Virus record (IMG/VR): IMGVR_UViG_3300032223_001260
Span: 1-26,361 of that record
Source: a virus
Strand: one strand, 5' to 3'
Length of the DNA: 26,361 nt
In this document: positions 1,791 through 21,530 of the stretch, piece after piece
Layout of the letters: every line of letters begins with the position of its first letter
Numbering within the stretch: position 1 is the stretch's first letter
The notes under the pieces: generated by a model
Seen by the model: the letters and a program-made list of their open reading frames with translations, nothing else
Told to the model about the DNA's origin: nothing
The model's database searches: none
Position numbers and translations under genes: made by a program

Positions 1791-1822
1791 TTTGGAATTG
1801 TCATTTATTTTATGTAGCTTTG
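1791..1822 (+). promoter_or_regulatory. Bacteroidota-type promoter for the LAGLIDADG gene
   Basis: A TTTG box at 1791-1794, a 20 nt spacer and TAGCTTTG (TAnnTTTG) at 1815-1822 match the -33/-7 consensus of the Bacteroidota primary sigma factor. It lies in the gap between the DNA ligase stop and the ATG at 1841, giving a short A/T-rich leader. Inference from motif match and spacing only. Confidence 0.6.
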
Positions 1823-1840
1823 TATTCTAAATATAAAACT

Positions 1841-2581
1841 ATGAAAAAGTACATGGCAGGTATCTTTGATGCCGAAGGGTATGTTAGAATAAGGCATACC
1901 AATCAATTCTCCTATACCCCAGAAGTACGAATCTATATGTGTGATAAACGCATTGTAGATATGTTCGGTAGGGCCTACGGAGTGAAGACTAAATCTGTAG
2001 ATAGGGGTAAGGATAGAAAGTTAGCCCACTGGGTTTCCTTAGGAGTAAAAGAACTAAAATCTACTACCTTTATCGCAGATATTCTTCCCTACTTAAATGA
2101 GAAAAGGATTCAACTTTTACAGGTGGACTATCTGCTTGGAAAAGCTAAACCTAAAGATGAGTGCTACCAAGACTACATGTTAGCTAAGGATACCTTTGAC
2201 CATCCTATTATAGGCAAACCTGACTATGAGTACATAGCAGGAGTTGTTGATGGGGATGGCTGGTTTACTATGTTTAACTCTGGTAAGTTCGATACCCACT
2301 CTATTCTTAACCGATTTTCATTTGGGTTAGAGCAGAGGTATAAGCCTATGATAGATTATATGACTCAGTTTGGAGGACATGTAACTACGAGACCTATCAA
2401 GGATAAGGATAATCACCGTCAGACCTATGAGTGGAAAATGTCTACACGAGATATGTTACCACTCCTTCGTAATATTGAACCGCATCTTATTGAAAAGAGG
2501 GAAAGATGTCAAGATTTCATAAAATACATTGAAAAGTGTAATGAGCTTGATGAATTAAGTAAAGAACTTTTAAAGAAATAA
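1841..2581 (+). CDS. LAGLIDADG homing endonuclease, two-motif form
   Basis: A 246-residue protein with two LAGLIDADG helices: YMAGIFDAEGYVRI at the very N terminus and YIAGVVDGDGWFTM about 135 residues later, each ending in the acidic residue that binds the catalytic metal. Two motifs in one chain mean it works as a monomer cutting an asymmetric site. It is free-standing: the DNA ligase before and the RNA ligase after it are both complete, so it is neither an intein nor intron-encoded. An in-frame TTG at 1820 overlaps the promoter -7 box, so the ATG at 1841 is preferred. The RNA ligase ATG follows its stop by only 3 nt. It has its own host-type promoter, unlike most phage genes here, which suggests recent insertion as a selfish gene. 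The target site is unknown. Confidence 0.88.
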   Translation: MKKYMAGIFDAEGYVRIRHTNQFSYTPEVRIYMCDKRIVDMFGRAYGVKTKSVDRGKDRKLAHWVSLGVKELKSTTFIADILPYLNEKRIQLLQVDYLLGKAKPKDECYQDYMLAKDTFDHPIIGKPDYEYIAGVVDGDGWFTMFNSGKFDTHSILNRFSFGLEQRYKPMIDYMTQFGGHVTTRPIKDKDNHRQTYEWKMSTRDMLPLLRNIEPHLIEKRERCQDFIKYIEKCNELDELSKELLKK

Positions 2582-2584
2582 ACT

Positions 2585-3151
2585 ATGATACCAGAATTTA
2601 AAGACTTCCCAAAGATGGCTAGGCTTTCTAGACCTATGATCATTACTGAGAAGATTGATGGTACTAATGCCTCTATCTTCATAGGAGAAGATGGAACCTT
2701 TCTCTGTGGTTCTAGGTCTAGGTGGCTATCCCTTGAGGATGATCATTATAACTTCGCTAAATGGGCTCACGAAAATAAAGAGGATCTAATGAAACTAGGC
2801 CCTGGCCATCACTTTGGTGAGTGGTGGGGAAGTGGTATTCAGAAAAGCTATGGGCTTGTTAATGGAGAGAAGAGATTTTCTCTGTTCAATGTATCCAGAT
2901 GGACTGATCCGGAAGCACGTCCTAAGTGCTGCCATGTAGTACCTATACTGTACACTGGTCCTTTTGATACAACCAAAATAGATGAAGTTTTACGAGATCT
3001 AGCCCATAACGGAAGTGTTGCTTCACCAGGCTTTGAGAAACCTGAAGGAATCATTATTTGGCATACTGCCGCTAACATTGGATTTAAGAAGACTGTCCAT
3101 AAGGACGAGGTTCCTAAATCTCTACAAACTGACGACCATGGTAACCTTTGA
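2585..3151 (+). CDS. RNA ligase, Rnl2-like nucleotidyltransferase domain only
   Basis: A 188-residue protein of the T4 Rnl2 / RNA_ligase family, which joins or caps RNA ends through a lysyl-AMP. Motif I is ITEKIDGTNAS (lysine near residue 23), the central motif is HFGEWWGSGI (about 77), motif IV is KPEGIIIW (about 152) and motif V is IGFKKT (about 165). It is much shorter than T4 Rnl2 (about 330 residues) and stops soon after motif V, so the C-terminal specificity domain is absent. Such minimal ligases occur in many phages and may repair tRNA nicked by host defences. The Poa1-like macrodomain gene 39 nt downstream may act in the same RNA-repair setting. Family assignment is firm; substrate is inference. 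Confidence 0.88.
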   Translation: MIPEFKDFPKMARLSRPMIITEKIDGTNASIFIGEDGTFLCGSRSRWLSLEDDHYNFAKWAHENKEDLMKLGPGHHFGEWWGSGIQKSYGLVNGEKRFSLFNVSRWTDPEARPKCCHVVPILYTGPFDTTKIDEVLRDLAHNGSVASPGFEKPEGIIIWHTAANIGFKKTVHKDEVPKSLQTDDHGNL

Positions 3152-3190
3152 TCTAACCTTGGATTATTTCATTAACAAAATAGAAAAGAT

Positions 3191-3751
3191 ATGGGAACAT
3201 ACAAGGAAGTGGAAGGTGACTTAATTGACCTTGCACTTCAAGGAGAATTCGATGTCATTGCACACGGAGCGAACTGTTTTTGTACTATGGGTGCAGGCAT
3301 AGCGCCTATCATGGCGGAGAACTTTGGTTGTGACCGGTTCAGGCTGGAGAATACCAAGTACAAAGGATCTATTCTTAAGCTAGGCCAGATCGACTTTGAA
3401 GGAAAGATGGTTGTGGATGGAGAAGTTCAATCTCCTATGCCCGAGCAGCTACCTAATCTCTATGTGGTCAACGCCTATACCCAATACGGATTTGGTCGCA
3501 ACCACTCAGATGGAATAAGCATACCGCTTAACTACCCAGCCTTAACTCTTTGCCTTATTAAGATTAACCATCTTTTTAAAGGCAAGAAGATAGGCCTACC
3601 CCAAATTGGCTGCGGACTGGCCGGGGGAGATTGGAAACAAGTCCAGGCGCTTATCAAGACTCACCTAGTAGACTGTGACGTCACTGTGGTGATCTTTGAT
3701 GGACAAACAACAATGGCTCAGCACGAGCTAGAAGAAGAAACTGAAGACTAA
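3191..3751 (+). CDS. Macrodomain protein, Poa1-like (ADP-ribose-1''-phosphate phosphatase type)
   Basis: A 186-residue stand-alone macrodomain. The N terminus shows YKEVEGDLIDLA, then FDVIAHGANCF with the conserved asparagine near residue 28 and TMGAGIAPIM, which form the ADP-ribose pocket. A second ligand loop is GLPQIGCGLAGGDW near residue 135, followed by VTVVIFDG. These are the marks of the yeast Poa1 and phage Appr-1''-p processing group, which act on ADP-ribose 1''-phosphate or on ADP-ribosylated substrates. It lies directly after the RNA ligase, so it could clear a by-product of RNA repair. It could also remove ADP-ribose placed on phage DNA or protein by host DarT-like defences, and a NADAR protein with a related role is encoded 5 kb away. 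The ATG at 3191 directly precedes the first conserved strand. Confidence 0.87.
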   Translation: MGTYKEVEGDLIDLALQGEFDVIAHGANCFCTMGAGIAPIMAENFGCDRFRLENTKYKGSILKLGQIDFEGKMVVDGEVQSPMPEQLPNLYVVNAYTQYGFGRNHSDGISIPLNYPALTLCLIKINHLFKGKKIGLPQIGCGLAGGDWKQVQALIKTHLVDCDVTVVIFDGQTTMAQHELEEETED

Positions 3752-3769
3752 CTTTTTTAAATATTAAAC

Positions 3770-4372
3770 ATGGCAACTATTCAAAAGGAGGCTGTCCTAC
3801 AAACAGCAACTGAGCCGGCGACTCCAAGGAGAGGACGCGGAAGACCTCGTAAACACCAAGTTATGACTGGCCAGACTTTGGTAGCAGCAGCTCCAATACC
3901 TGTGCAGGCCCCTGTAACTGAGGTGAAAAGAGGACGCAGTCGTCCAAGGAAGAACCCGGTATCTGCAGCACCTGCTCCTGTAGTTGAGCCAGTAACCTCG
4001 GTAAAGAGAGGAAGAGGGCGTCCTAGGAAGCATCCTCTACCTATATCTGCACCTGTGACTGCTGCATCTGCACCAATCAACCTGAAGCCTGTTCCGGCTA
4101 AGGCGCCTATCCGTATCTCTCACGCTAAAGCCCTTGAGCTGATGGAGAACAACAAAGGCCACTACTTTACTGCAGTGTTTATCAAGAAAGACCAGACTGA
4201 GAGGACTATGAACTGTAAGCTCATGGCTAATCAGGTACCTGATCGTCTTGGTTATATCAAGGTGAAAGAGGCGGTTCTACTTCGCCAAGGTAAAAATGCA
4301 ATTCGTAACGTTAATCTGCAAACACTAAAGGCTCTGCAGATTGGCAAGAAAAGCTACCGCGTAGGAGCATGA
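3770..4372 (+). CDS. Triple AT-hook protein with C-terminal SH3-like domain
   Basis: A 200-residue, probably DNA-binding protein. Three AT-hooks, which bind the minor groove of A/T-rich DNA, are visible: RRGRGRPRKH (about 20-29), KRGRSRPRKN (about 53-62) and KRGRGRPRKH (about 79-88). They are separated by Ala/Pro/Val-rich linkers expected to be disordered. The C-terminal 85 residues are different: FTAVFIKKDQTERTMNCKL followed by GYIKVKEA and a late KALQIGKKSYRV, a pattern I associate with small SH3-like beta-barrel proteins of Bacteroidota phages. The middle hook has Ser for Gly (GRSRP). Its stop overlaps the MazG-like start (ATGA). A role in organising or regulating the phage genome is inference. 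The repetitive linkers make long spurious reverse-strand frames, which are ignored. Confidence 0.82.
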   Translation: MATIQKEAVLQTATEPATPRRGRGRPRKHQVMTGQTLVAAAPIPVQAPVTEVKRGRSRPRKNPVSAAPAPVVEPVTSVKRGRGRPRKHPLPISAPVTAASAPINLKPVPAKAPIRISHAKALELMENNKGHYFTAVFIKKDQTERTMNCKLMANQVPDRLGYIKVKEAVLLRQGKNAIRNVNLQTLKALQIGKKSYRVGA

Positions 4373-4656
4373 CGCAAGACGAAATCATTGAACATCTTTT
4401 CCTGAATAATGGGACCAAGTACAACCTCCACAAAGCATCTGAAGAGATGCAGGAGCTTGGCTTGGTCCTTAATCAGTATCTCTTAAAGCCTACGAAAGTA
4501 GACGAACAGGAGATCATTGATGAGATAGGCGATGTGAAGATTCGCTTAGCTATTTTGGAAAAGATGTTCCCGACAGATAAGATCCAGGCAAGGGTAGATT
4601 ACAAGCTATCTAAGTTCCAGGAATACATCGATCGTAAGCTGTACGATCAGATCTAG
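4369..4656 (+). CDS. MazG-like all-alpha NTP pyrophosphohydrolase candidate
   Basis: A 95-residue, helix-rich protein. It shows SEEMQEL near residues 24-30 and IIDEIGDVKIRLAIL near 49-63, the E-x-x-E ... E-x-x-D arrangement that binds magnesium in MazG and dUTPase-2-like all-alpha pyrophosphatases. Such phage enzymes hydrolyse dNTPs or (p)ppGpp. Only one four-helix unit is present, so it would work as a dimer or tetramer. It begins in an ATGA overlap with the AT-hook gene and is the last gene before a clear terminator, so it closes the first operon. Fold assignment is moderately sure; substrate unknown. Confidence 0.65.
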   Translation: MTQDEIIEHLFLNNGTKYNLHKASEEMQELGLVLNQYLLKPTKVDEQEIIDEIGDVKIRLAILEKMFPTDKIQARVDYKLSKFQEYIDRKLYDQI

Positions 4657-4722
4657 TAATTAGCTGAAACTGAGACAGTTAGGAAAGATTGTCAAAGGTT
4701 AGATTGTTCGCCGATTTAACAC

Positions 4723-4765
4723 AAAATAGTAGTAGAAATGCTTGGTTTTCTCCTTACTATTTTTT
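4723..4765 (+). terminator. Intrinsic terminator closing the first operon
   Basis: A long hairpin has an AAAATAGTA arm at 4723-4731 that pairs with TACTATTTT at 4755-4763. An inner AGAAA/TTTCT pairing extends the stem, and a run of T follows. It sits 66 nt after the MazG-like stop. The loop and the 3' end overlap the promoter of the following ATPase gene. Confidence 0.72.
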
Positions 4766-4772
4766 ATCTTTG
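4742..4772 (+). promoter_or_regulatory. Bacteroidota-type promoter for the recombination operon
   Basis: TTGG at 4742-4745, a 19 nt spacer and TATCTTTG (TAnnTTTG) at 4765-4772 lie 17 nt before the ATG at 4790. The -33 box is inside the loop of the preceding terminator hairpin and the -7 box begins at the last base of its T-run. Confidence 0.65.
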
Positions 4773-4789
4773 ACTTTTAATTCAATACA

Positions 4790-5266
4790 ATGTCAGAAAC
4801 AGCTAAAGTAGCAAAAACAGCGGACAAAGTCCAAGCAAAGAGGGAGTTCTACAAGGTACTTCTTCTGGCTCAATCAGGAAAGGGTAAGACCTACTCATTC
4901 CGGAATGTGGATCCTACCACATTCGCGATGGTAAACATCGAGAACAAGCCTCTCCCATTCAAAAACGAATTCAAGTATCATGCCCGCCCTACCACCACGA
5001 AAGAGGTGATAGACATGACTATTGAGTTTGCTAAGAACCCGGAGATTACGGCTATAGGCATTGACTCTTTCTCAGCGTTCACAGACATTCTCCTTGCAGA
5101 GGCGAGAGCCAACTACGAAGGATGGGATGTTTGGAACTACTACAACAAGCAACTTGCTTTCTTCTTTGAGATGGTTAAGAAGATCAAGAAAGAAGTTTTC
5201 ATCACAGCCCACTACGAAACGCTTGGTATCGAGGGTTCTCCTGAAAAGAGAACTAAGGTTAAGGGT
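4790..5266 (+). CDS. Sak4-like RecA-fold ATPase, exon 1
   Basis: N-terminal 159 codons of a phage single-strand-annealing/recombination ATPase of the Sak4 (AAA_24) type. Walker A is AQSGKGKT at residues 27-34 and a Walker B-like strand is EITAIGIDSF near 85-93. The signature histidine strand VFITAHYETLG follows. The gene is interrupted after the GGT glycine codon at 5264-5266: reading on gives seven foreign codons and a TAA at 5288-5290. The missing C-terminal part resumes at 6087. After splicing the protein is 228 residues (159 + 69), normal for the family. The downstream neighbours, a probable SSB and a primase, support a role in recombination-dependent replication. Translation starts after an A-rich leader (CAATACAATG). 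Confidence 0.88.
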
Positions 5267-6086
5267 AAACTTTTGCCCTCACTGGTTTAACTGCTGGAAT
5301 ATCTCGAAGGTATGGTGACTACAACAGAAATAGAAATATTAAATGTGAACGTTCAAAAACATCATATTATGAGACAATCAGCATCCAAGCCCCTGTCAAA
5401 TGGGGAAGGTTCAACGACTATCCCGAAAGGGAGTACTGGGAGAAATCCTGGGAAACAGCCAGTATATTTAAGAGAAAGGTTTGTAGTCTATAAGATTACA
5501 AATCTAGTTAATGAGAAGTTTTATATAGGTTCTGCATCTTACTACGATAAGCGCATTGGGACTCATGTATCGAGACTAAGACAAAATATCCATAAAAATC
5601 CACACTTACAAGCAGCATGGAATAAATATGGAGAAGATAATTTCAAGTTTGAGGTCTTAGAAAGATGTACTAAAGAGTCTCTAATCACTAGAGAAATGGA
5701 ACTTATAAAAAAACTAAAATGTAGTGATAGAGAAGTAGGTTATAACATGTTAACTCTTCCATCGAGATTAGGCGCTACTATGCCAGAGTCAGCTAAAGAA
5801 AAGATAGGAAATTTTTGGAGGGGAAAACCCTTTTCAACAGAGAGGCTAGAAAAGTTTACTACTATTATGAGAGAAAAATTCTCTATACCAGTAATAGCTA
5901 CCAACATTGTGACAAATGAGTCTGTCGAGTTTCCATCCATATCAGAAGCAGCATTGCAATTAGGAATGCATGTGTCATCTATCTCTCGTCAATTACATAA
6001 AACATTAACTAGAAAACCAAGAAAATATCTCTTTAAGTATAAAGATATAGTCTGATCTACATGGTGACATGTAGCTAACACAAATG
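5267..6086 (+). ncRNA. Group I intron in the Sak4-like ATPase gene
   Basis: An 820 nt self-splicing intron. The 5' exon end AGGGT pairs with GCCCT at 5275-5279 to form P1 with the U-G wobble at the splice site. The P7 arms are GTTCaacGACTA (5409-5420) and TAGTCtGATC (6048-6056); the GACTA/TAGTC pairing is perfect and the outer part has one U-U mismatch. CTTT at 5270-5273 can pair with the first bases of exon 2 (AAAG) as P10. The intron ends in G at 6086. Removing it joins KVKG to KEWEG in frame. It encodes a GIY-YIG endonuclease whose UGA stop lies in the 3' P7 region. Confidence 0.87.
5312..6055 (+). CDS. Intron-encoded GIY-YIG homing endonuclease
   Basis: Up to 247 residues; an I-TevI/I-BmoI-like modular nuclease that would cut intron-less copies of the ATPase gene and spread the intron. 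The GIY-YIG domain starts at FVVYKITN and YIGSA (about residues 57-75), with the catalytic arginine in KRIGTHVSRLR and the metal-binding glutamate in ITREMELI. A NUMOD3-like segment (MPESAKEKIGNFWRGKPFS) and a C-terminal NUMOD1/helix-turn-helix-like segment (FPSISEAALQLGMHVSSIS) follow for DNA binding. The first 50 or so codons overlap the catalytic core of the intron RNA. No ATG, GTG or TTG lies between codon 20 (ATG 5369) and the nuclease domain, so translation must begin within the core, at 5312 or 5369. The stop codon overlaps P7. Composition looks more A/T-rich than the exons. Confidence 0.88.
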   Translation: MVTTTEIEILNVNVQKHHIMRQSASKPLSNGEGSTTIPKGSTGRNPGKQPVYLRERFVVYKITNLVNEKFYIGSASYYDKRIGTHVSRLRQNIHKNPHLQAAWNKYGEDNFKFEVLERCTKESLITREMELIKKLKCSDREVGYNMLTLPSRLGATMPESAKEKIGNFWRGKPFSTERLEKFTTIMREKFSIPVIATNIVTNESVEFPSISEAALQLGMHVSSISRQLHKTLTRKPRKYLFKYKDIV

Positions 6087-6296
6087 AAAGAGTGGGAAGG
6101 TGTGTGTGAAAAAGAATTTACCATTGTCCTTTTTGGAGAGAGTAAGTTCGTCAATGAAAGGCCTGAGTACTCTTACTTCCTAGCTAAGGAGGGAACTCCG
6201 GCCAAGTGTCCACCAGCCATCTTTGGTCCGGACACAGTAAAGGTTCCCAACGACGTAAATCTTATCCTTGAAAAGATCGTCACATTTGCAAGTTAA
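6087..6296 (+). CDS. Sak4-like RecA-fold ATPase, exon 2
   Basis: C-terminal 69 codons of the ATPase begun at 4790, beginning KEWEGVCEKEFTIVLF. The segment has no ATPase motifs of its own but continues the beta strands expected after the HYET strand of exon 1, and it ends with PNDVNLILEKIVTFAS. An ATG at 6084-6086 is made of the last three intron bases, so the apparent small gene starting there is an artefact of the splice site. The frame with exon 1 is kept exactly when 5267-6086 is removed. The stop is followed by a short A/T-rich gap before the next gene. Confidence 0.85.
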   Translation, partial: KEWEGVCEKEFTIVLFGESKFVNERPEYSYFLAKEGTPAKCPPAIFGPDTVKVPNDVNLILEKIVTFAS

Positions 6297-6308
6297 ATTT
6301 TAAATACA

Positions 6309-6602
6309 ATGTCACAGACACACGAAAGTCCAGCAGTAGTTGGCAGACAGAAAAGAGAAGTATCTATCAAATGGAGAGACGTAAGAATCGCCTATGAAGT
6401 GGATGAAAAGTCAATCGCAGAACTCGCTGAGCTCTACGACATTGACTGGTCAGACATGAAGAAGGTTCTGATGGACTACGGTATCTCTGTACGCAGAGAT
6501 GGTGAAGTAAAACCTGAACCAGCTAAGTCTTACACTATCCATCTGGTAGACGCAGACAAAGTAGCTAAAGCAACAGCTAAACCAGTAAACGCAGCAGTCT
6601 AA
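6309..6602 (+). CDS. Small HTH-like protein, unknown function
   Basis: A 97-residue protein I do not recognise by family. The middle, SIAELAELYDIDWSDMKKVL followed by DYGISVRRDGE (about residues 37-68), looks like a helix-turn-helix of the AsiA/homeodomain-like kind in which a short recognition helix follows a small turn. The N terminus is polar and the C terminus is Ala/Lys-rich and probably disordered. It sits between the Sak4-like ATPase and the probable SSB, so a part in recombination or its regulation is possible. The upstream leader (AATACAATGTCA) is the same as that of the ATPase gene, which hints at shared translation signals. Function is unknown. Confidence 0.7.
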   Translation: MSQTHESPAVVGRQKREVSIKWRDVRIAYEVDEKSIAELAELYDIDWSDMKKVLMDYGISVRRDGEVKPEPAKSYTIHLVDADKVAKATAKPVNAAV

Positions 6603-6644
6603 GTAATTCCCGGTTAACAATTAAACACAATAATCTAAAGTAAC

Positions 6645-7277
6645 ATGGCTAACGACGCATTCGACATGGGTGGCACAGCTGCCCCAGAGAACAAAGAGAG
6701 AGAATTCCTAACGCCCGGCTATCGCAAGCTAACCGTCAACAAGTTTGAGTACACTCCGGCTGAAGCTGGTAAGACTCCGCTTATCCTGATGAAGGCAACA
6801 GGTACTGGAGCATCAGGCGATCCTGTAGAGTTCACTGAGCGTCTTTACATCAGCGGAAAGCTGAATAAAGACAAAGTGATGAGCTCTATTGTACGTCTTC
6901 AGGAGCTCTACAAAGGTCTGACCGGCAACGAGAAGATCACTATCCAACCAAGCAAGTTTGAGTACACTAAAGATGGTACTAAGTACACTATCCCTAATCC
7001 TCAGGAGCTCTGCGACTTCCTTAACACTACTTGTACTGGTATCACCAGAATATTCAAGATCGGTGGAGAGAAGAATGAAGAAGGAAAAATCTTCACTAAG
7101 CTGACCTACTCTGGATTCCTGTACTACACAGACAAGCAAGGTAGCCTGCACACTTATCCAAGTGAGGCAGACTTTTCTGAGCAAGAGTACAAGTTCGCAG
7201 TGCAAACCAAGAAGACAGAAGGTGCTCCTGCCGGCAATGGCGCAGTATCGTCTCCTTCCGCACTAGACGACCTATAA
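6645..7277 (+). CDS. Probable single-stranded DNA-binding protein
   Basis: A 210-residue protein with strand-rich sequence and few acidic or basic clusters: KLTVNKFEYTPAEAGKTPLI, VEFTERLYISGKLNKDKV, KITIQPSKFEYT and TKLTYSGFLYYT suggest an OB-like fold. The last 25 residues are Gly/Ala/Ser-rich and end in the acidic tail SALDDL, the arrangement used by SSB proteins to recruit partners. Its position directly after the Sak4-like ATPase and before primase is the usual place for phage SSB genes. No diagnostic SSB motif is visible, so the call rests on context, tail and predicted strands. It is followed by a strong intrinsic terminator, consistent with an abundant product at the end of a transcript. 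Confidence 0.55.
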   Translation: MANDAFDMGGTAAPENKEREFLTPGYRKLTVNKFEYTPAEAGKTPLILMKATGTGASGDPVEFTERLYISGKLNKDKVMSSIVRLQELYKGLTGNEKITIQPSKFEYTKDGTKYTIPNPQELCDFLNTTCTGITRIFKIGGEKNEEGKIFTKLTYSGFLYYTDKQGSLHTYPSEADFSEQEYKFAVQTKKTEGAPAGNGAVSSPSALDDL

Positions 7278-7299
7278 AGTTTCCTTTTTCCCGACTTAG

Positions 7300-7327
7300 G
7301 GGCTACTCAGCAATGGGTAGCCCTTTT
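7300..7327 (+). terminator. Intrinsic terminator after the SSB-like gene
   Basis: GGGCTAC at 7300-7306 and GTAGCCC at 7317-7323 form a perfect 7 bp stem with a 10 nt loop, followed by TTTTAATTTAT. It lies in the 61 nt gap before the primase gene. Confidence 0.85.
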
Positions 7328-7338
7328 AATTTATCACC

Positions 7339-8379
7339 ATGGAAGACACATTTGACATGAGCGCCTATGAGGTAGCCACGCCTTTAACTGCTGAGTATGT
7401 CCTAAGCCAGGTAGATGACGTTCTTATCCTAAGGCACTACATAGGAGAGTTCAAACTAGGTAAGGCCATGAAGTCCCCGCTAAGAGTAGATCGTAATCCA
7501 AGCTTTAAAATCATTCTGAGTCCTACGTGGCTCAAACTTATGTATAAGGATTGGACAACAGGAGAGGCCGGAGATTGCTTTAAACTCGTAGCAAGGATGT
7601 TTGGACTGACCTGGAAAGAAGCTGTCTACAAAGTAGCTTGTGATTTTGGACTGGTCAAAGGGACATGCACTGTAAACAAGAAACAACTCGCTGAGGCCCG
7701 GAAGTTCAAGGAAGAATTCCAGCAACAGGAGTACATCATACAATTCGACCCCAGACGAATGGATGAGCAGGAGCTGGCCTATTGGCAGCAATACTGCATC
7801 TATCCACCGGATCTGAAGGAGAATAACATCTACGCGATCAGGGCTCTCTGGGTGAGCAAGAAACAATTTTTCCTGGGCGCTGGACTACACTTTGCTTACT
7901 ATTTCCCTGAAGTAGATAAGCTAAAGATCTACAGTCCTAACGAAAAGGAGTGGAAATGGTTTGGGAACGTATCAGCTTTCCAGATGGAAGGCGTAGAGAG
8001 ACTCATCCCTAGCCTTTATGAACCAGTGATCATTACCAAAAGCCGGAAAGATCGGATCATTCTTAGTAAGCTCTATCCTAATGTCTGTTCTACACAGAAT
8101 GAGGCGGAAACAGCTATCCCTAAAGAGATGGATGCTAAGTTCGATAAGATGTATCCAGCAGGTAAGTTCTGCTGGTTTGATTCAGACGAACCTGGTAAAG
8201 CTGCAAACAGAAAGCTTAACTATCGCGGGTACAAATGGATCAATGTACCAAACAAGCTCTACGAAGAGCACAAAGTCAAAGACCCTTCCGATGTGATCAA
8301 ACACTTTGGCTGGGACGAAGGCTCAAAAATATTACTCAAAGAGATAAACAAAAAGATTGGTTATGGAACTAAACGATAA
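7339..8379 (+). CDS. DnaG-type DNA primase
   Basis: A 346-residue protein. The N-terminal part shows MKSPLRVDRNPSFKI and YKDWTTGEAGDCFKLVARMFG (about residues 50-95), the pattern of the zinc-binding CHC2-like domain of phage primases in which the cysteines have been lost. The Toprim core is seen as PVIITKSRKDRIILSKLY (about 229) and KFCWFDSDEPGKAANRKL (about 275), which carry the acidic residues for metal, then KDPSDVIKHFG near the end. It would synthesise RNA primers for the polymerase encoded 10 kb downstream. No helicase domain is fused, and no replicative helicase is seen in the window. It starts 12 nt after the terminator T-run; the NADAR gene overlaps its 3' end by 17 nt. Confidence 0.8.
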   Translation: MEDTFDMSAYEVATPLTAEYVLSQVDDVLILRHYIGEFKLGKAMKSPLRVDRNPSFKIILSPTWLKLMYKDWTTGEAGDCFKLVARMFGLTWKEAVYKVACDFGLVKGTCTVNKKQLAEARKFKEEFQQQEYIIQFDPRRMDEQELAYWQQYCIYPPDLKENNIYAIRALWVSKKQFFLGAGLHFAYYFPEVDKLKIYSPNEKEWKWFGNVSAFQMEGVERLIPSLYEPVIITKSRKDRIILSKLYPNVCSTQNEAETAIPKEMDAKFDKMYPAGKFCWFDSDEPGKAANRKLNYRGYKWINVPNKLYEEHKVKDPSDVIKHFGWDEGSKILLKEINKKIGYGTKR

Positions 8380-8872
8380 AATACGAGCCATTATGGTCGT
8401 AGATGAAACCCAGATACGTGGCTTCTTTGGAGACTACCGCTGGCTTTCGAACTTTCACTCGGCTACTATCGAGTTTGAAGGTTTGACTTATCCTTCTAGC
8501 GAGGCTGCTTATCAGGCGGCTAAAACACTGGATGAGGAACAGCGTAAAACTTTCACTAAGGTTACTCCAGGCGACTCTAAGATCATGGGCAGGCTAGTAA
8601 GCCTACGTTCAGACTGGGAGCAGGTCAAGGATGACATTATGTACAGGATTCTGATCTACAAATTTACCAAGCATCCTGAACTAGGGCAGGCCCTTTTGGA
8701 TACAGGAGATAAGTACCTGGAAGAGACTAACTACTGGAATGATACCTACTGGGGTGTCTGCAAAGACCTCGGCCAGAACAAGCTTGGCAAACTACTTATG
8801 AAGATTCGCGAAGAGCTGTTTTTCGAAAATCACAAAACAAGACCGTATGATCCAAATAAAGATAACCGGTAG
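8363..8872 (+). CDS. NADAR-family protein (YbiA-like)
   Basis: A 169-residue NADAR (NAD and ADP-ribose) domain protein. Nearly the whole family signature is present: GFFGDYRWLSNFHSA at about 20-34, TYPSSEAAYQAAK, MGRLVSLRSDWEQVK, LLDTGDKYLEETNYW and NDTYWGVCKDLGQNKLGKLL. Known members hydrolyse N-glycosidic bonds: YbiA-like ones act on riboflavin intermediates, and others reverse ADP-ribosylation of guanine in DNA. A NADAR protein of phage RB69 (AdfN) counteracts the DarTG defence system, so anti-defence is a reasonable inference here. The ATG at 8363 overlaps the primase end by 17 nt; a second ATG at 8393 is also possible. A TTG at 8357 is less likely. Confidence 0.88.
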   Translation: MELNDKIRAIMVVDETQIRGFFGDYRWLSNFHSATIEFEGLTYPSSEAAYQAAKTLDEEQRKTFTKVTPGDSKIMGRLVSLRSDWEQVKDDIMYRILIYKFTKHPELGQALLDTGDKYLEETNYWNDTYWGVCKDLGQNKLGKLLMKIREELFFENHKTRPYDPNKDNR

Positions 8873-9020
8873 TGGGTCTAAAGAGGAGATCACCAAGGCT
8901 TTAGGCTCATTGATCACCTTCCTGGAGTTCAACTACACTGAAGCGGACTTTGAGACTCCCAAAACCTTTGAAGACGAAACCTTATTTACACACATAAGCA
9001 AAGTAAAAGACGATGAGTGA
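8847..9020 (+). CDS. Small acidic protein of 57 residues, unknown function
   Basis: The 140 nt between the NADAR stop and the glycosylase start looks empty, but an uninterrupted frame from ATG 8847 to TGA 9018-9020 fills it. The product starts MIQIKITGSGSKEEITKAL, a strand-loop-helix opening, then has a hydrophobic LGSLITFLEF segment and an acidic C terminus ending KVKDDE. It overlaps the NADAR gene by 26 nt and the glycosylase gene by 8 nt (its stop lies just inside the next start), matching the tight packing of neighbouring genes. I do not recognise a family. Confidence 0.65.
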   Translation: MIQIKITGSGSKEEITKALGSLITFLEFNYTEADFETPKTFEDETLFTHISKVKDDE

Positions 9021-9780
9021 CCAACTACGACTCGATGTGGAAGTCAAGAATCCCATCAAACCAGCTTTAGCGAATCAGCTAAGAGACTGGAAGTGCTTAT
9101 ATCCGTTTTTTGAGGGCCCCGAATGGGTTGCTCTCAAGAATGCAATTAAGCCGGATATGGAAAAGGTTGTCCCGATACCCGACAAGTGGTTCCGCGCATT
9201 CACAGCTTGTGAGTACAAAGATCTTAAGGTCGTGTTCATAGGGCTTTGTCCATACCACACACTAGACGGTTATACCAAGCAGATAGTAGCAGACGGACTG
9301 GCATTCAGCACAGCCCAGAAGCACAATACACCACCTAGCCTGTTCAAAGTGTATAAGGGTATCGAGGCGGATCTCTGGCAAGGAATGAACCTCGATATGA
9401 TGAGGTACTTAGAGCTAGACTTCCTGGCTCATCAAGGTATCCTTCTGGCCAATATTGCCTTAACAACTATCCTTGGTACTGCAGCCTATCACACTAAGGT
9501 CTGGGAACCTTTTACTAAGTTCCTGATCGATACCTTGAACAAAGAAAAAGAAGGTCTGATCTTTGTAGGCTTTGGAGTTCCAGCTTGCAAGGCTCTCCAG
9601 CAAGTAGACCAGACCAAACACACTCTCATAGAACTTGAACATCCGGCAGCCAGTGCCTATGAATCCAGGGACTGGAGACATGAGAATGTCTTCTCCCGAA
9701 TCAACGACATTTTAAGACATCAAAATCAAACTGAAATTCTATGGGACAAATACTTAGTAGACATAAAAGTACCATTCTAG
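9013..9780 (+). CDS. Uracil-DNA glycosylase homologue with altered catalytic motif
   Basis: A 255-residue protein of the family 1 UDG fold. The motif order is kept: VVFIGLCPYH at about 74-82 stands for GQDPYH, DGLAFST holds the uracil-stacking Phe, ILLANIALT has the uracil-reading Asn (about 147), and LEHPAASAY has the catalytic His (about 210). The striking change is GLCPYH for GQDPYH: the Gln and the catalytic Asp that activates water are replaced by Leu and Cys. It may therefore be weakly active, act on another substrate, or bind uracil or modified DNA without cleavage. The segment between this motif and GLAFS (LDGYTKQIVA) is also unusual and contains an Asp that might substitute. It starts just before the upstream small gene ends. 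Confidence 0.82.
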   Translation: MSDQLRLDVEVKNPIKPALANQLRDWKCLYPFFEGPEWVALKNAIKPDMEKVVPIPDKWFRAFTACEYKDLKVVFIGLCPYHTLDGYTKQIVADGLAFSTAQKHNTPPSLFKVYKGIEADLWQGMNLDMMRYLELDFLAHQGILLANIALTTILGTAAYHTKVWEPFTKFLIDTLNKEKEGLIFVGFGVPACKALQQVDQTKHTLIELEHPAASAYESRDWRHENVFSRINDILRHQNQTEILWDKYLVDIKVPF

Positions 9781-18249: not shown

Positions 18250-19572
18250 ATGAGATACACAATCGGGTGCGAATTAGGCACCAAGAGTACGGTTGAGGAC
18301 TGCCTGGAGTACTTCCAGTTCACTCCTCACGTAGAAGTGGATACCGAGACCAGTGGTCTGGACCCACACAAAGACAAAATAGTATCACTTCAGCTAGGAG
18401 ATCATGCTAACCAATGGTTCATAGATACCAGGCATGTAGACATCCTGCTATTCAAGCAACTCTTAGAGTCTAAGCTTTGCATTCTACACAATGCCAAGTT
18501 CGACTACAAGATGTTGAGGAAGGCGGGTATAGTCCTGGAGCAGATCTACGATACTATGCTGGCAGAATGCGTTCTAGCCTGTGGACATGACAAGTGGGGC
18601 TACACACTAAAAGCCTTATACAAGCGCTATCTTGGGATTGAACTAGCAAAAGAAGAACAGAAGAGTTTCATCGGTCTTAAGAATCAGGAGTTTACCCTGG
18701 CTCAGATCGAGTATGCATGTGAGGACGTCTCCAATCTTGGAAACATTCGTGCACATCAAATGATGAAACTCCAGAAGTTCGATCTGAAATACTGCGCTAA
18801 CCTTGAGAATGAGGTCGTTAAAGCCCTAGGAGATATCGAGTACAACGGAATGTACCTTGACTCTGACGCCTGGATAAAGATGACCAATGCACACAAGGCC
18901 AAACTGTTCATTATCCAGCAGAACTTGGACAAACTTGTCATGGAAGATCCTAAGCTAGTCAAGTTCAGACCACAAGGTCAACAAGCCAACCTCTTTGGAG
19001 ATTACGAACGACCTACCAGCATTAACTTTGGCTCGCCTAAGCAAGTGCTGGAGATCTGCCACATTCTAGGAGAACCAGTAGAAACTACAAACGAGCGTGA
19101 GATAGGCAAACTAGCTAAACTCGACGCTGAAACCAGTGAAGTCATCTTCTCTAAACATCCGTTCTTTGGCTTACTGTTGCAGAACCGGGAAGCAGCGAAG
19201 ATCGTCTCCACCTACGGCCTAAGCTTTCTGGACTACATCAATCCAGTCACCGGTAGGATTCACACGAACTTCTGGCAAGTACTTAATACTGGCCGAGTAA
19301 GCTCAGGCGATCCTAACCTCCAGAACCTACCAGCTAAGAACCTCTTCAGAAACTGCTTTAAAGCTAGACCCGGATTCAAGTGGGTATCAATAGATTATAG
19401 TGGCCAGGAGTTGAGAATCATGGCCGATGGTTCCGGAGAACAAGGCTTTATAGATGTCCTTAATAGTGGACAGGATCTACACTGCTATGCCGGAGAGATG
19501 ATGTTCAAGAGGCCTATCGACAAGAAGAAAGACAAGGCGTTGCGAGACAAAGCAAAAACCATTAACTTCGGT
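18250..19572 (+). CDS. polA: Family A DNA polymerase, exon 1 (exonuclease and motif A)
   Basis: First 441 codons of the replicative polymerase. The 3'-5' proofreading domain has Exo I VEVDTETSGLD (Asp31, Glu33), Exo II LHNAKFDYKML (Asp85) and Exo III YACED (Tyr155, Asp159), so it should be active. The polymerase domain starts with the TGRVSSGDPNLQNLP-type motif and motif A VSIDYSGQELRIM (catalytic Asp near 382). The exon ends inside motif B, RDKAKTINFG, the O-helix that holds the incoming dNTP. Unspliced, ten foreign codons follow before the TGA at 19600-19602. Exons 1-3 join to give 631 residues, typical for phage PolA without a 5' nuclease domain; that activity is in the previous gene. Confidence 0.93.
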
Positions 19573-19586
19573 AGACAAAAATTCAC

Positions 19587-19594
19587 TATCTTTG
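19587..19594 (+). promoter_or_regulatory. Promoter -7 box inside the P1 loop of intron 1
   Basis: TATCTTTG matches the Bacteroidota TAnnTTTG -7 element and stands four bases before the ATG of the intron HNH gene. The same box with the same spacing precedes the HNH gene at 21024. A -33 box at 19-21 nt upstream is poor, so this may be weak or depend on another signal. Transcription from here would give an almost leaderless HNH mRNA. Confidence 0.4.
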
Positions 19595-19598
19595 TATC

Positions 19599-20111
19599 AT
19601 GAGTACCAAAGAAATTGCCGAAGTAAAACCTTTCAAAGTCGGTGAACCCTTAACAGAGAATGCTGATGGGAATACCGAGCCAAGCATACTAGATAGTTCT
19701 AGTAAGGCGTGTGTAGAGACTAGACGGAAGGTGTGTATCAAATGTGGGAACGTAATTCCACAAAGCAAATATAAAAGCGCTAAGTATTGTTCTGATGTGT
19801 GTAGAAATGCCTATATCTCTTGGAGATATCGAGTAAACCATGGACTAATTAAGAATCCAGGTGTAGGCTCAGGTAATAATCAGGAAAGATCTATTGAGAC
19901 CCTTAAAGGTAGAACAGCTTGTAGAAAAGCAATGCTTCTACTTTCAAAAGTCTGCAATAGATGTTCCAGTACACACAATTTAGTAGCTCATCATATAGAC
20001 CATAATAGAGATAACAATGTATTATCTAATTTTGAGATACTATGTAAGGCATGCCATCAAAGGCATCATAACAATACACGCGATTCTATAGGCAGATATA
20101 CAAAGGTATAG
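19599..20111 (+). CDS. Intron-encoded HNH homing endonuclease
   Basis: Up to 170 residues. The nuclease part has a zinc knuckle (CIKCGNV, then KYCSDVCRN) and the HNH core CNRCSSTHNLVAHHIDHN, RDNNVLSNFEIL, CKACHQRHH with His, Asn and His present. It should promote homing of the intron into intron-less polymerase genes, like the I-HmuI family in SPO1-like phages. The ATG overlaps the TGA that ends unspliced exon 1 (ATGA), allowing coupled translation from unspliced RNA. The first 40 or so codons run through the intron core, including the 5' P7 arm, and look like non-domain sequence; a GTG just before CIKCG (19732) is an alternative start. The UAG stop forms part of the 3' P7 arm. Confidence 0.87.
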   Translation: MSTKEIAEVKPFKVGEPLTENADGNTEPSILDSSSKACVETRRKVCIKCGNVIPQSKYKSAKYCSDVCRNAYISWRYRVNHGLIKNPGVGSGNNQERSIETLKGRTACRKAMLLLSKVCNRCSSTHNLVAHHIDHNRDNNVLSNFEILCKACHQRHHNNTRDSIGRYTKV

Positions 20112-20143
20112 TCCACACCTTAATGAAAATTAAGGATAATGTG

Positions 20144-20461
20144 AAACCGTATGGAATGGGAGTAGATAAGCTCGCGGACACCTTAAGCATTCCTAAAGAA
20201 GAAGCTGCAGAACTGTTCAAAGTTTATGCTGAGGCCTTCCCAGTGCTGAACAACTGGTTGGAGGCGCAGGGTAAGCTCGCAGTAAGCAGGCACTATTCTA
20301 CCACTCTGGCGCCTTGTAAGAGACGCAGATGGTATCCGGATATGCAGAAGGCCATTGAGAAGAGAAAAAGCGCTAAGAAAGGAGATAAGACCGCTTGGAA
20401 GGAGATTATGATCACTGAAGGTCAGACTCACAGAAACGGAATGAACTCTCCAATCCAGGGT
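20144..20461 (+). CDS. polA: Family A DNA polymerase, exon 2
   Basis: The middle 106 codons of the polymerase, starting KPYGMGVDKLADTLSI, the C-terminal half of motif B (O-helix and following turn), and continuing through the fingers: EEAAELFKVYAEAFPVLNNW and the LAPCKRRRWYP region. It ends in MNSPIQG, the conserved NxPIQGTxAD motif, after the GGT glycine codon at 20459-20461. Unspliced, the next codon is TAA. An ATG at 20123 makes a false start inside the intron; true exon sequence begins at 20144. Frame and protein alignment are continuous with both flanking exons. Confidence 0.9.
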
Positions 20462-20724
20462 TAAACAGTAGCCCTGGCTAAATTCCGTGAATTGCTGGGA
20501 AGTCCTTAGGGATTATCAGCAGCCAAGCTGCCTAGGAATAGGTAGAAGGTTCAGAGACTAGATGAAGTAATCCAGACCGGATGAAACATCCACGAGCGCG
20601 GAACTCAAAGATTTGGAAATGTGTTCTGTAAAAACATTCCCAAATACTTTGAAGAAGATATAGTCCGAACTACTATGTAAGTAGTAGAACCATAGGATAA
20701 AGAGCCTGTGGGATAACATAATTG
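20462..20724 (+). ncRNA. Group I intron 2 of the polymerase gene, without an ORF
   Basis: A compact 263 nt intron. Exon bases CCAGGGT (20455-20461) pair with GCCCTGG (20471-20477) as a 7 bp P1 with the U-G wobble at the splice site. CAGT at 20466-20469 can pair with the first four bases of exon 3 (ACTG) as P10. The P7 arms are GTTCagaGACTA (20549-20560) and TAGTCcGAAC (20661-20670), perfect. It ends in G at 20724. No reading frame of useful length is inside, so homing would need another endonuclease. Splicing restores NSPIQG-TGADICKEAL. Confidence 0.92.
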
Positions 20725-20979
20725 ACTGGAGCAGACATCTGTAAAGAGGCCTTGGTTGATGTGCGTAAACTAGCTCAAGCCTACAACACAAAGTATGGCG
20801 AAGAGGTAGTATTTCTTATTTGCACTGTCCATGATGCGATCGATTGTGAAGTCAGAGAAGATCTGGCTGAGGAATTCGCAAAGGAAATGGCAGATGCAAT
20901 GATCACCTCCGGCAATCGGTACGTATCAAAGGTAAAGATGGAAGTCGATACTACGATAACGTCGGAATGGACCAAGTAA
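20725..20979 (+). CDS. polA: Family A DNA polymerase, exon 3 (motif C)
   Basis: The last 84 codons and stop. It begins TGADICKEALVDVRKLA, the continuation of the PIQGTxADI motif, and carries motif C, CTVHDAIDCEV, whose Asp is the second catalytic metal ligand. E. coli has VHDEL here; Ala instead of Glu after the Asp is common in phage enzymes. The C terminus, VKMEVDTTITSEWTK, is the usual end of the thumb-palm strand in PolA (EVGxGxxW-like), so the protein is complete. A frame extension to TTG 20722 is created by intron bases and is not real. Confidence 0.9.
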   Translation, partial: TGADICKEALVDVRKLAQAYNTKYGEEVVFLICTVHDAIDCEVREDLAEEFAKEMADAMITSGNRYVSKVKMEVDTTITSEWTK

Positions 20980-21023: not shown

Positions 21024-21530
21024 ATGAGAACATGCTATAGATGCAAAGAGCAAAAAGAAGCTGAAGACTTCTACATAGGTCAAACCTACTGCAAGTCTTG
21101 TCAGTCCGGTTACTTTCAAGAGAACAAGGACAAGATACAAGCACAACGTAGGCAGTATAGATTAGATCATCCCGAGGCTAAGACCCGGCAATGGGAAATG
21201 GCTAAGACAAGAAGAATCTGTAATAGAGAAAAGCACTTATGGAGAGCTGCAAAAGATAGAGCTGCTAAGTCGGGTATATCCTTCTCTATTGAGGTTTCAG
21301 ACATAGTTATTCCAGAACTATGTCCCTTACTTCAAATTCCACTTACTAAAGGAAGCATGTCAAGGAATGACCCTAATGCTCCATCTCTTGATAGAGTAGA
21401 TAATTCTAAAGGCTATATTCCTGGTAATGTCAAAGTAATCAGCTATAAGGCCAACTTCATGAAGTCCAATGCTACTAAAGAGGAACTAGAAACTTTTTAC
21501 AGCAACATTTTTAACTATTTGGCCAAATAA
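21024..21530 (+). CDS. Free-standing HNH/His-Me finger endonuclease downstream of polA
   Basis: A 168-residue protein. The N terminus has a zinc ribbon (CYRCKEQ, then YCKSC), followed by a basic helix-rich linker (KDKIQAQRRQYRLDHPEAKTR). The C-terminal half, ELCPLLQIPL followed by APSLDRVDNSKGYIPGNVKVISYKANFMK, is the pattern of phage HNH-like nucleases in which SLDRxD and GNVxxIS bracket the active site. It lies 44 nt after the polymerase stop, with its own promoter, so it is not co-regulated with polA. It may be the homing nuclease for the ORF-less intron 2 (collaborative homing), or target the polymerase region generally; that is inference. Confidence 0.8.
   Translation: MRTCYRCKEQKEAEDFYIGQTYCKSCQSGYFQENKDKIQAQRRQYRLDHPEAKTRQWEMAKTRRICNREKHLWRAAKDRAAKSGISFSIEVSDIVIPELCPLLQIPLTKGSMSRNDPNAPSLDRVDNSKGYIPGNVKVISYKANFMKSNATKEELETFYSNIFNYLAK

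Follow-up and report, generated by a model that had tools for sequence, protein, structure and literature searches.

NADARs and macrodomains are unrelated kinds of protein that release ADP-ribose (ADPr). Every NADAR tested, including Escherichia coli YbiA and T4 gp30.3, removed ADPr from guanine in vitro and none removed it from thymidine (PMC11125620), and NADARs also reverse guanine ADP-ribosylation on RNA (PMC11833690). Among macrodomains, SCO6735 cleaves thymidine-ADPr and neutralizes DarT, and Lys80 of DarG has a catalytic role (PMC9411070). Macro and NADAR proteins co-occur in DNA viruses above chance in an analysis of 21,191 viral proteomes, and tandem NADAR–Macro proteins exist (PMC9503650). 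Here we analyzed one gene of each kind in a viral stretch of 26,361 bases (the window), which is the whole of IMG/VR record IMGVR_UViG_3300032223_001260 and a fragment of a larger phage; a megablast comparison of the window with phages found no close named relative at the DNA level. An earlier note on this DNA had proposed that its macrodomain (3191–3751, + strand) and full NADAR (8363–8872, + strand) protect phage DNA from both classes of DarT, with RNA repair as an alternative role for the macrodomain. Both genes are indeed present as intact ORFs with confident family matches (phrog_335, 3e-46; PF08719, 8e-27), retained active-site residues, and confident structural models.

With moderate confidence, we favor a reading in which these are two separate accessory ADPr-releasing enzymes, probably both active, that do not form a dedicated pair, the NADAR acting on guanine adducts and the macrodomain on 1''-linked ADPr. 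The NADAR, a putative YbiA-type N-glycosidase encoded between the primase gene and a uracil-DNA glycosylase (UDG)-like gene and presumably cotranslated with the primase, would strip ADPr from guanine bases that host ADP-ribosyltransferases such as DarT1 have modified in DNA (and RNA), and it would do so during phage replication. The macrodomain, with a probable role tied to RNA repair and the NAD+ economy, would hydrolyze a 1''-linked ADPr derivative and free ADPr that NAD+ metabolism can reuse. Candidate derivatives are an immune nucleotide, the ADPr-phosphate arising in RNA end repair, and ADP-ribosylated ends or bases.

The 169-residue NADAR matched Pfam PF08719 at 94.9 bits (cut-off, 35.1) and phrog_1017 with an E value of 3e-44. 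Its ATG lies at 8363, with an alternative TTG start at 8357, and the start overlaps the primase stop (8379) by 17 nt, so the NADAR is probably translated together with the primase. A model built from an alignment of viral relatives (predicted local distance difference test [pLDDT] 91) superimposed on E. coli YbiA (2b3w) with a structural Z score of 18.8 over 151 aligned residues at 38% identity and on a Phytophthora NADAR with a Z of 18.2, while the match to the Geobacter lovleyi NADAR was weak (Z 8.9). Residues E47, K54, and E121 were invariant in 25 aligned sequences, and D127 and W130 were kept; the first three correspond to the Glu/Lys/Glu active-site set of NADARs (PMC11543638). Judged from its sequence and model, the protein is a YbiA-type NADAR, neither DarT1-linked nor gp30.3-type, and by analogy with characterized NADARs it likely removes ADPr from guanine. 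It shares with YbiA and YbiA-type phage NADARs this residue set and the absence of any extension; unlike YbiA, it lies outside a dinG/rhlE operon, is coupled to a primase in a phage, and carries a one-residue insertion before the D-x-x-W motif. With DarT1-linked NADARs (the DarG1 or BC4488 type), it shares the NADAR superfamily, the Glu, and the Lys, but the catalytic Asp of that type is found neither at E121 nor two residues earlier (L119), and it has no DarT neighbor in the fragment.

The earlier note had also drawn a parallel with a NADAR of phage RB69, AdfN, which we take to be the gp30.3 protein of that phage. This parallel was not supported: the only NADAR homolog found in RB69 is the gp30.3 protein, which belongs to a different branch from the window NADAR. 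The RB69 gp30.3 frame (L077, NC_004928) is ∼15 residues shorter at its C terminus than that of T4 (L076). The T4 and RB69 proteins resemble the window NADAR in being phage NADARs from genomes that also encode a phrog_335 macrodomain (Tk.4), but they form a separate Pfam family, PF08010, which the window protein matched below the cut-off (E = 0.099), and they have a His for the catalytic Glu (PMC11125620), where the window protein has the Glu and no His.

The macrodomain protein stands alone at 186 aa. It scored 17.9 bits against Pfam Macro, below that model's own 22-bit cut-off, and its assignment comes from phrog_335 and from a profile built from its relatives, which matched BT1257, SCO6735, Poa1p, TARG1, and DarG in the PDB. 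A model from the viral-relative alignment (pLDDT 84) gave Z scores of 17.6 to BT1257, 16.2 to TARG1, 16.0 to SCO6735, 15.4 to DarG, and 13.8 to Poa1p. On sequence and modeled fold, it is a member of the TARG1/ALC1-like class, and the earlier label "Poa1-like" was loose, in that Poa1p was matched but four other structures ranked higher. Both models matched the expected folds, with BT1257 ranking above DarG and YbiA above the G. lovleyi NADAR. DarG identity was rejected, as PADLOC and NCBIfam matches span only ∼50 residues and the NCBIfam DarG model scored 37 bits against a 250-bit cut-off. The protein has none of the DarT-binding C-terminal domain of DarG, and no match to DarT (PF14487) was found in the window's 26-kb record, itself a fragment.

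In the alignment, N28 and Q98 of the macrodomain correspond to Asn27 and Gln85 of SCO6735 and were invariant in 18 aligned sequences. Gln98 occupies the position of the catalytic Lys80 of DarG, so that no Lys is found at the DarG/TARG1 site, and Ala144 replaces Asp125 of TARG1, a position that is likewise Ala in SCO6735 and BT1257. The loop from the Gln to the Tyr is long and mobile in those two proteins, at 15 to 16 residues (∼10 in TARG1, and shorter in DarG also), and was ∼18 residues in the window protein when counted by eye in what is a low-confidence loop of the model. The differences from SCO6735/BT1257, at 22 to 24% identity, are that Gly26 stands where SCO6735 has its specific Val25 (or Ile), that Lys89 is unmatched, the region reading Gly102/Arg103, and that the window protein is phage-encoded and adjoins an RNA ligase. 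The protein is acidic (pI 4.8). Because SCO6735 cleaves thymidine-ADPr, hydrolysis of this adduct is possible for the window macrodomain by analogy, but we do not favor it. The residue set described for Poa1p is His23, Asn26, Ser30, and Gly33, and phage Adele also has Thr at the Ser30 position (PMC12846349); by alignment, the window protein keeps H25 and N28 and has Thr32 for Ser30 and Ala35 for Gly33, a pattern with which phosphatase-type activity on ADPr-1''-phosphate may be compatible.

Comparison with collinear relatives separated the two genes. Scans with the window primase and with the GP88-like protein retrieved no relatives, but a scan with the ribonucleotide reductase (RNR) found two collinear ones, L099 and L100 (76% and 75% identical in RNR). 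The window and both relatives share the order DNA ligase, g3770, Sak4, single-stranded DNA-binding protein-like, primase, UDG-like, rIIA, rIIB, RNR, flap endonuclease, and PolA. On the left, the window has an ATP-dependent DNA ligase (712–1782, +; Pfam DNA_ligase_A_M 1e-16, phrog_114 3e-79), followed by a LAGLIDADG homing-endonuclease-like ORF (1820–2581, +; Pfam LAGLIDADG_1 2e-4, slightly below cut-off), an RNA ligase with a KIDG motif (2585–3151, +, 188 aa; Pfam RNA_ligase 7e-16, phrog_548 8e-30), the macrodomain gene, and g3770, an AT-hook-containing ORF (3770–4372, +; Pfam AT_hook 4e-6, phrog_2267 5e-10). In both relatives, the g3770 homolog directly follows the DNA ligase, and the block of LAGLIDADG ORF, RNA ligase, and macrodomain (1820–3751) is missing as a unit. 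The RNA ligase covers positions 30 to 213 of the 341 in the phrog_548 profile and from this coverage seems to consist of the nucleotidyltransferase domain only.

The second site is the junction between the primase (7339–8379, +; phrog_12622 5e-31, 60–61% identical to those of L099/L100) and the UDG-like gene (9013–9780, +; phrog_12143 9e-31, 50–51%). Here the window encodes the NADAR, followed by a 57-aa ORF without a PHROG match (8847–9020, +), L100 has an unrelated 71-aa ORF, and the L099 primase overlaps the UDG-like gene. Since L099 and L100 are ∼97% identical up to this junction, the junction is variable even among close relatives. Neither the NADAR nor the macrodomain was found elsewhere in the L099 and L100 records, both of which are fragments. 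Some 4.6 kb, with six or more genes, separates the NADAR from the macrodomain gene. We conclude that the macrodomain and the NADAR are accessory genes at two independent insertion sites. In the bordering UDG-like protein, the catalytic DPYH motif of uracil-DNA glycosylase, judged by eye, reads CPYH in the window and SPYY in L099/L100, and the protein is possibly a noncatalytic uracil-DNA-binding protein.

Carrying both folds is ordinary among phages. Relatives of the macrodomain were found in 2661 phage records and relatives of the NADAR in 499, and T4 and RB69 each carry both folds, as a phrog_335 macrodomain and a gp30.3 NADAR. A NADAR was found in one of 19 macrodomain-bearing IMG/VR records (L001) and phrog_335 in six of 30 NADAR-bearing records, and therefore the two are not strictly linked. 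One record contains a single 464-aa ORF (L062:5944–7335) that appears to be a fusion of NADAR, macrodomain-like, and SLOG-like parts. A 482-kb jumbo phage (L028, record G020) encodes two NADARs of different branches (317400–317837 and 403937–404383), the more divergent of which lies ∼3 kb from a Namat/NadV-like gene.

The gene contexts of the relatives also differed. The commonest neighbors of macrodomain relatives were nicotinamide phosphoribosyltransferase (NAMPT), ribose-phosphate pyrophosphokinase (Prs), NadM-type, Nudix, and RNA ligase families, while other phage NADARs were often flanked by replication families (primase/helicase, DnaB, DNA polymerase). These NAMPT/Prs/NadM neighbors led us to abandon an initial reading of the macrodomain as the DarT2 partner in a pair. 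A Namat/NadV gene (here and below, Namat/NadV and Adps are family-level labels that do not denote ADPR-PP specificity) occurred within 10 kb in eight of 11 macrodomain lineages versus one of 21 NADAR lineages (one-sided Fisher p = 1.3e-4), where lineages are 70% clusters excluding the window and, not being fully independent, make the p-value a guide only. On a gene tree, no fewer than four changes are required to explain the Namat context, which is seen in three branches, one of them the branch of the window.

Three distinct phage lineages have the macrodomain flanked by a Prs (Adps-like) gene on one side and a Namat/NadV-like gene on the other, with frames that overlap or nearly touch. The order Prs–macrodomain–Namat was found in L014 (9123–12120), in the L012/L013 group (as RNA ligase–Prs–118 aa–macrodomain–Namat), and in the cultured Vibrio phage Cilsick (L086:6992–9998, gp172–gp173–gp174), whose gp173 is annotated as hypothetical; two Pseudomonas phages have the order Prs–Namat–macrodomain–DprA. 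Among 12 named phage Prs–Namat loci examined, three have a macrodomain within ∼5 kb. L001, one of the two nearest relatives of the window macrodomain, has Prs, NADAR, macrodomain, a nucleoside deoxyribosyltransferase-like gene, and Namat within ∼9 kb; in the L002 record, Prs and Namat lie ∼12 kb from the macrodomain. T4 Tk.4 and Cilsick gp173 have the profile family and the Asn/Gln active-site core in common with the window copy, and PaAdele_020 of the Pakpunavirus Adele is placed with them by description only. Unlike these relatives, the window copy lies in a LAGLIDADG–RNA ligase block.

The macrodomain of phage Adele has already been proposed to tie into NAD+ reconstitution (PMC12846349), and the RyDEP glycosidase, encoded within a NARP1 operon, was shown to convert signals made of cyclic ADPR to ADPR that feeds NAD+ synthesis (PMC13232231, preprint). 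We tentatively propose, as a possibility that is less likely than not, that phage NAD+ reconstitution recurrently includes the phrog_335 macrodomain as a third component, which would pass ADPr from host-made adducts or immune nucleotides to Adps and Namat. In the window phage and L001, guanine adducts would supply this pool as well, by way of the NADAR. As for RNA repair, the earlier note's alternative for the macrodomain proved the better-supported half of its proposal.

Several observations weigh against our favored reading. YbiA and T4 gp30.3, although active in vitro, gave no rescue of cells from E. coli C7 DarT1 (PMC11125620). Neither Prs nor Namat was found within the window fragment, nor Namat in the fragments holding L099 and L100, and phage phi17:2, which is complete, encodes a close relative of the macrodomain but neither Prs nor Namat. 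Finally, with two collinear relatives to compare, the genes may equally well have been gained by the window phage or lost in the ancestor of those relatives.

We weighed three other explanations. A matched counter-DarTG pair, in which the NADAR undoes DarT1 guanine marks and the macrodomain DarT2 thymidine marks so that phage DNA is shielded from both, appears unlikely. Divergent phage NADARs are reported to counter DarTG1. Parts of this idea were supported: the NADAR has the Glu/Lys/Glu set and is an accessory gene coupled to the primase, guanine-ADPr is cleaved by all tested NADARs (PMC11125620), the macrodomain is accessory as well, and its class includes SCO6735, a remover of thymidine-ADPr that neutralizes DarT and has the same Asn/Gln pair, matched by N28 and Q98, and the long mobile loop (PMC9411070). 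The matched DarT1-plus-DarT2 set was not supported. The macrodomain has Gly26 for Val25 and no counterpart of Lys89, its acidity differs from the electropositive cleft of SCO6735, and it has neither the DarG lysine nor the C-terminal domain nor, within this fragment, a neighboring DarT; its context is RNA ligase and, in relatives, NAD+ genes, the two insertion sites are separate, and cells gained no protection against DarT1 from YbiA or T4 gp30.3.

Less likely still, both enzymes might act mainly on small ADPr derivatives such as Thoeris-like immune nucleotides and ADPr-1''-phosphate, as has been argued from co-occurrence and context in the 21,191 viral proteomes (PMC9503650). The NARP1-operon glycosidase, which converts cyclic ADPR signals to ADPR (PMC13232231, preprint), and the NADAR–macrodomain–SLOG-like fusion are consistent with such a role, but the demonstrated NADAR substrates in the cited work are guanine-ADPr nucleic acids and riboflavin intermediates, and the window NADAR is coupled to a primase and not to NAD+ genes. 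We consider it improbable that the macrodomain is a Poa1-like ADPr-1''-phosphate phosphatase that cleans up in RNA repair after the neighboring RNA ligase, with the NADAR acting as a YbiA-like metabolite detoxifier: within their shared block the ligase is 40 bp upstream of the macrodomain, H25, N28, and the Adele-like Thr32 recall Poa1p, and the NADAR scores 80.9 bits against the ribofla_fusion cut-off of 73.7, but the window proteins examined included no recognized KptA/Tpt1 or 2H enzyme, the fold match to Poa1p is poorer than those to BT1257, SCO6735, and TARG1, and Gly33 of Poa1p is replaced by Ala35.

Other interruptions were seen in the window and its relatives. The DNA polymerase A region is split (18250–20979) and contains a group I intron (20452–20687; Rfam RF00028, 76.9 bits), with HNH-like ORFs at 19599–20111 and 21024–21530. 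The Sak4-like gene (4790–6296) is interrupted by an insertion with a GIY-YIG-like ORF (5312–6055), and its homologs in L099 and L100 are uninterrupted. The rIIA gene of L099 has its own GIY-YIG-like insertion (6177–6848), which L100 lacks.

Both genes are new members of known enzyme kinds, and their interest, which we rate as moderate, comes from the split in context. Macro and NADAR proteins abound in phages, and few of their substrates are established. Context separates the two here: the NADAR is found with replication genes, and the macrodomain with an RNA ligase or, among its relatives, with genes of NAD+ reconstitution. This split predicts which substrates are the first candidates for each. 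If our tentative proposal is true, the phage would turn the product of a host attack back into NAD+, and if the macrodomain does feed NAD+ synthesis, this would give a role to thousands of phage proteins annotated as "phosphatase."

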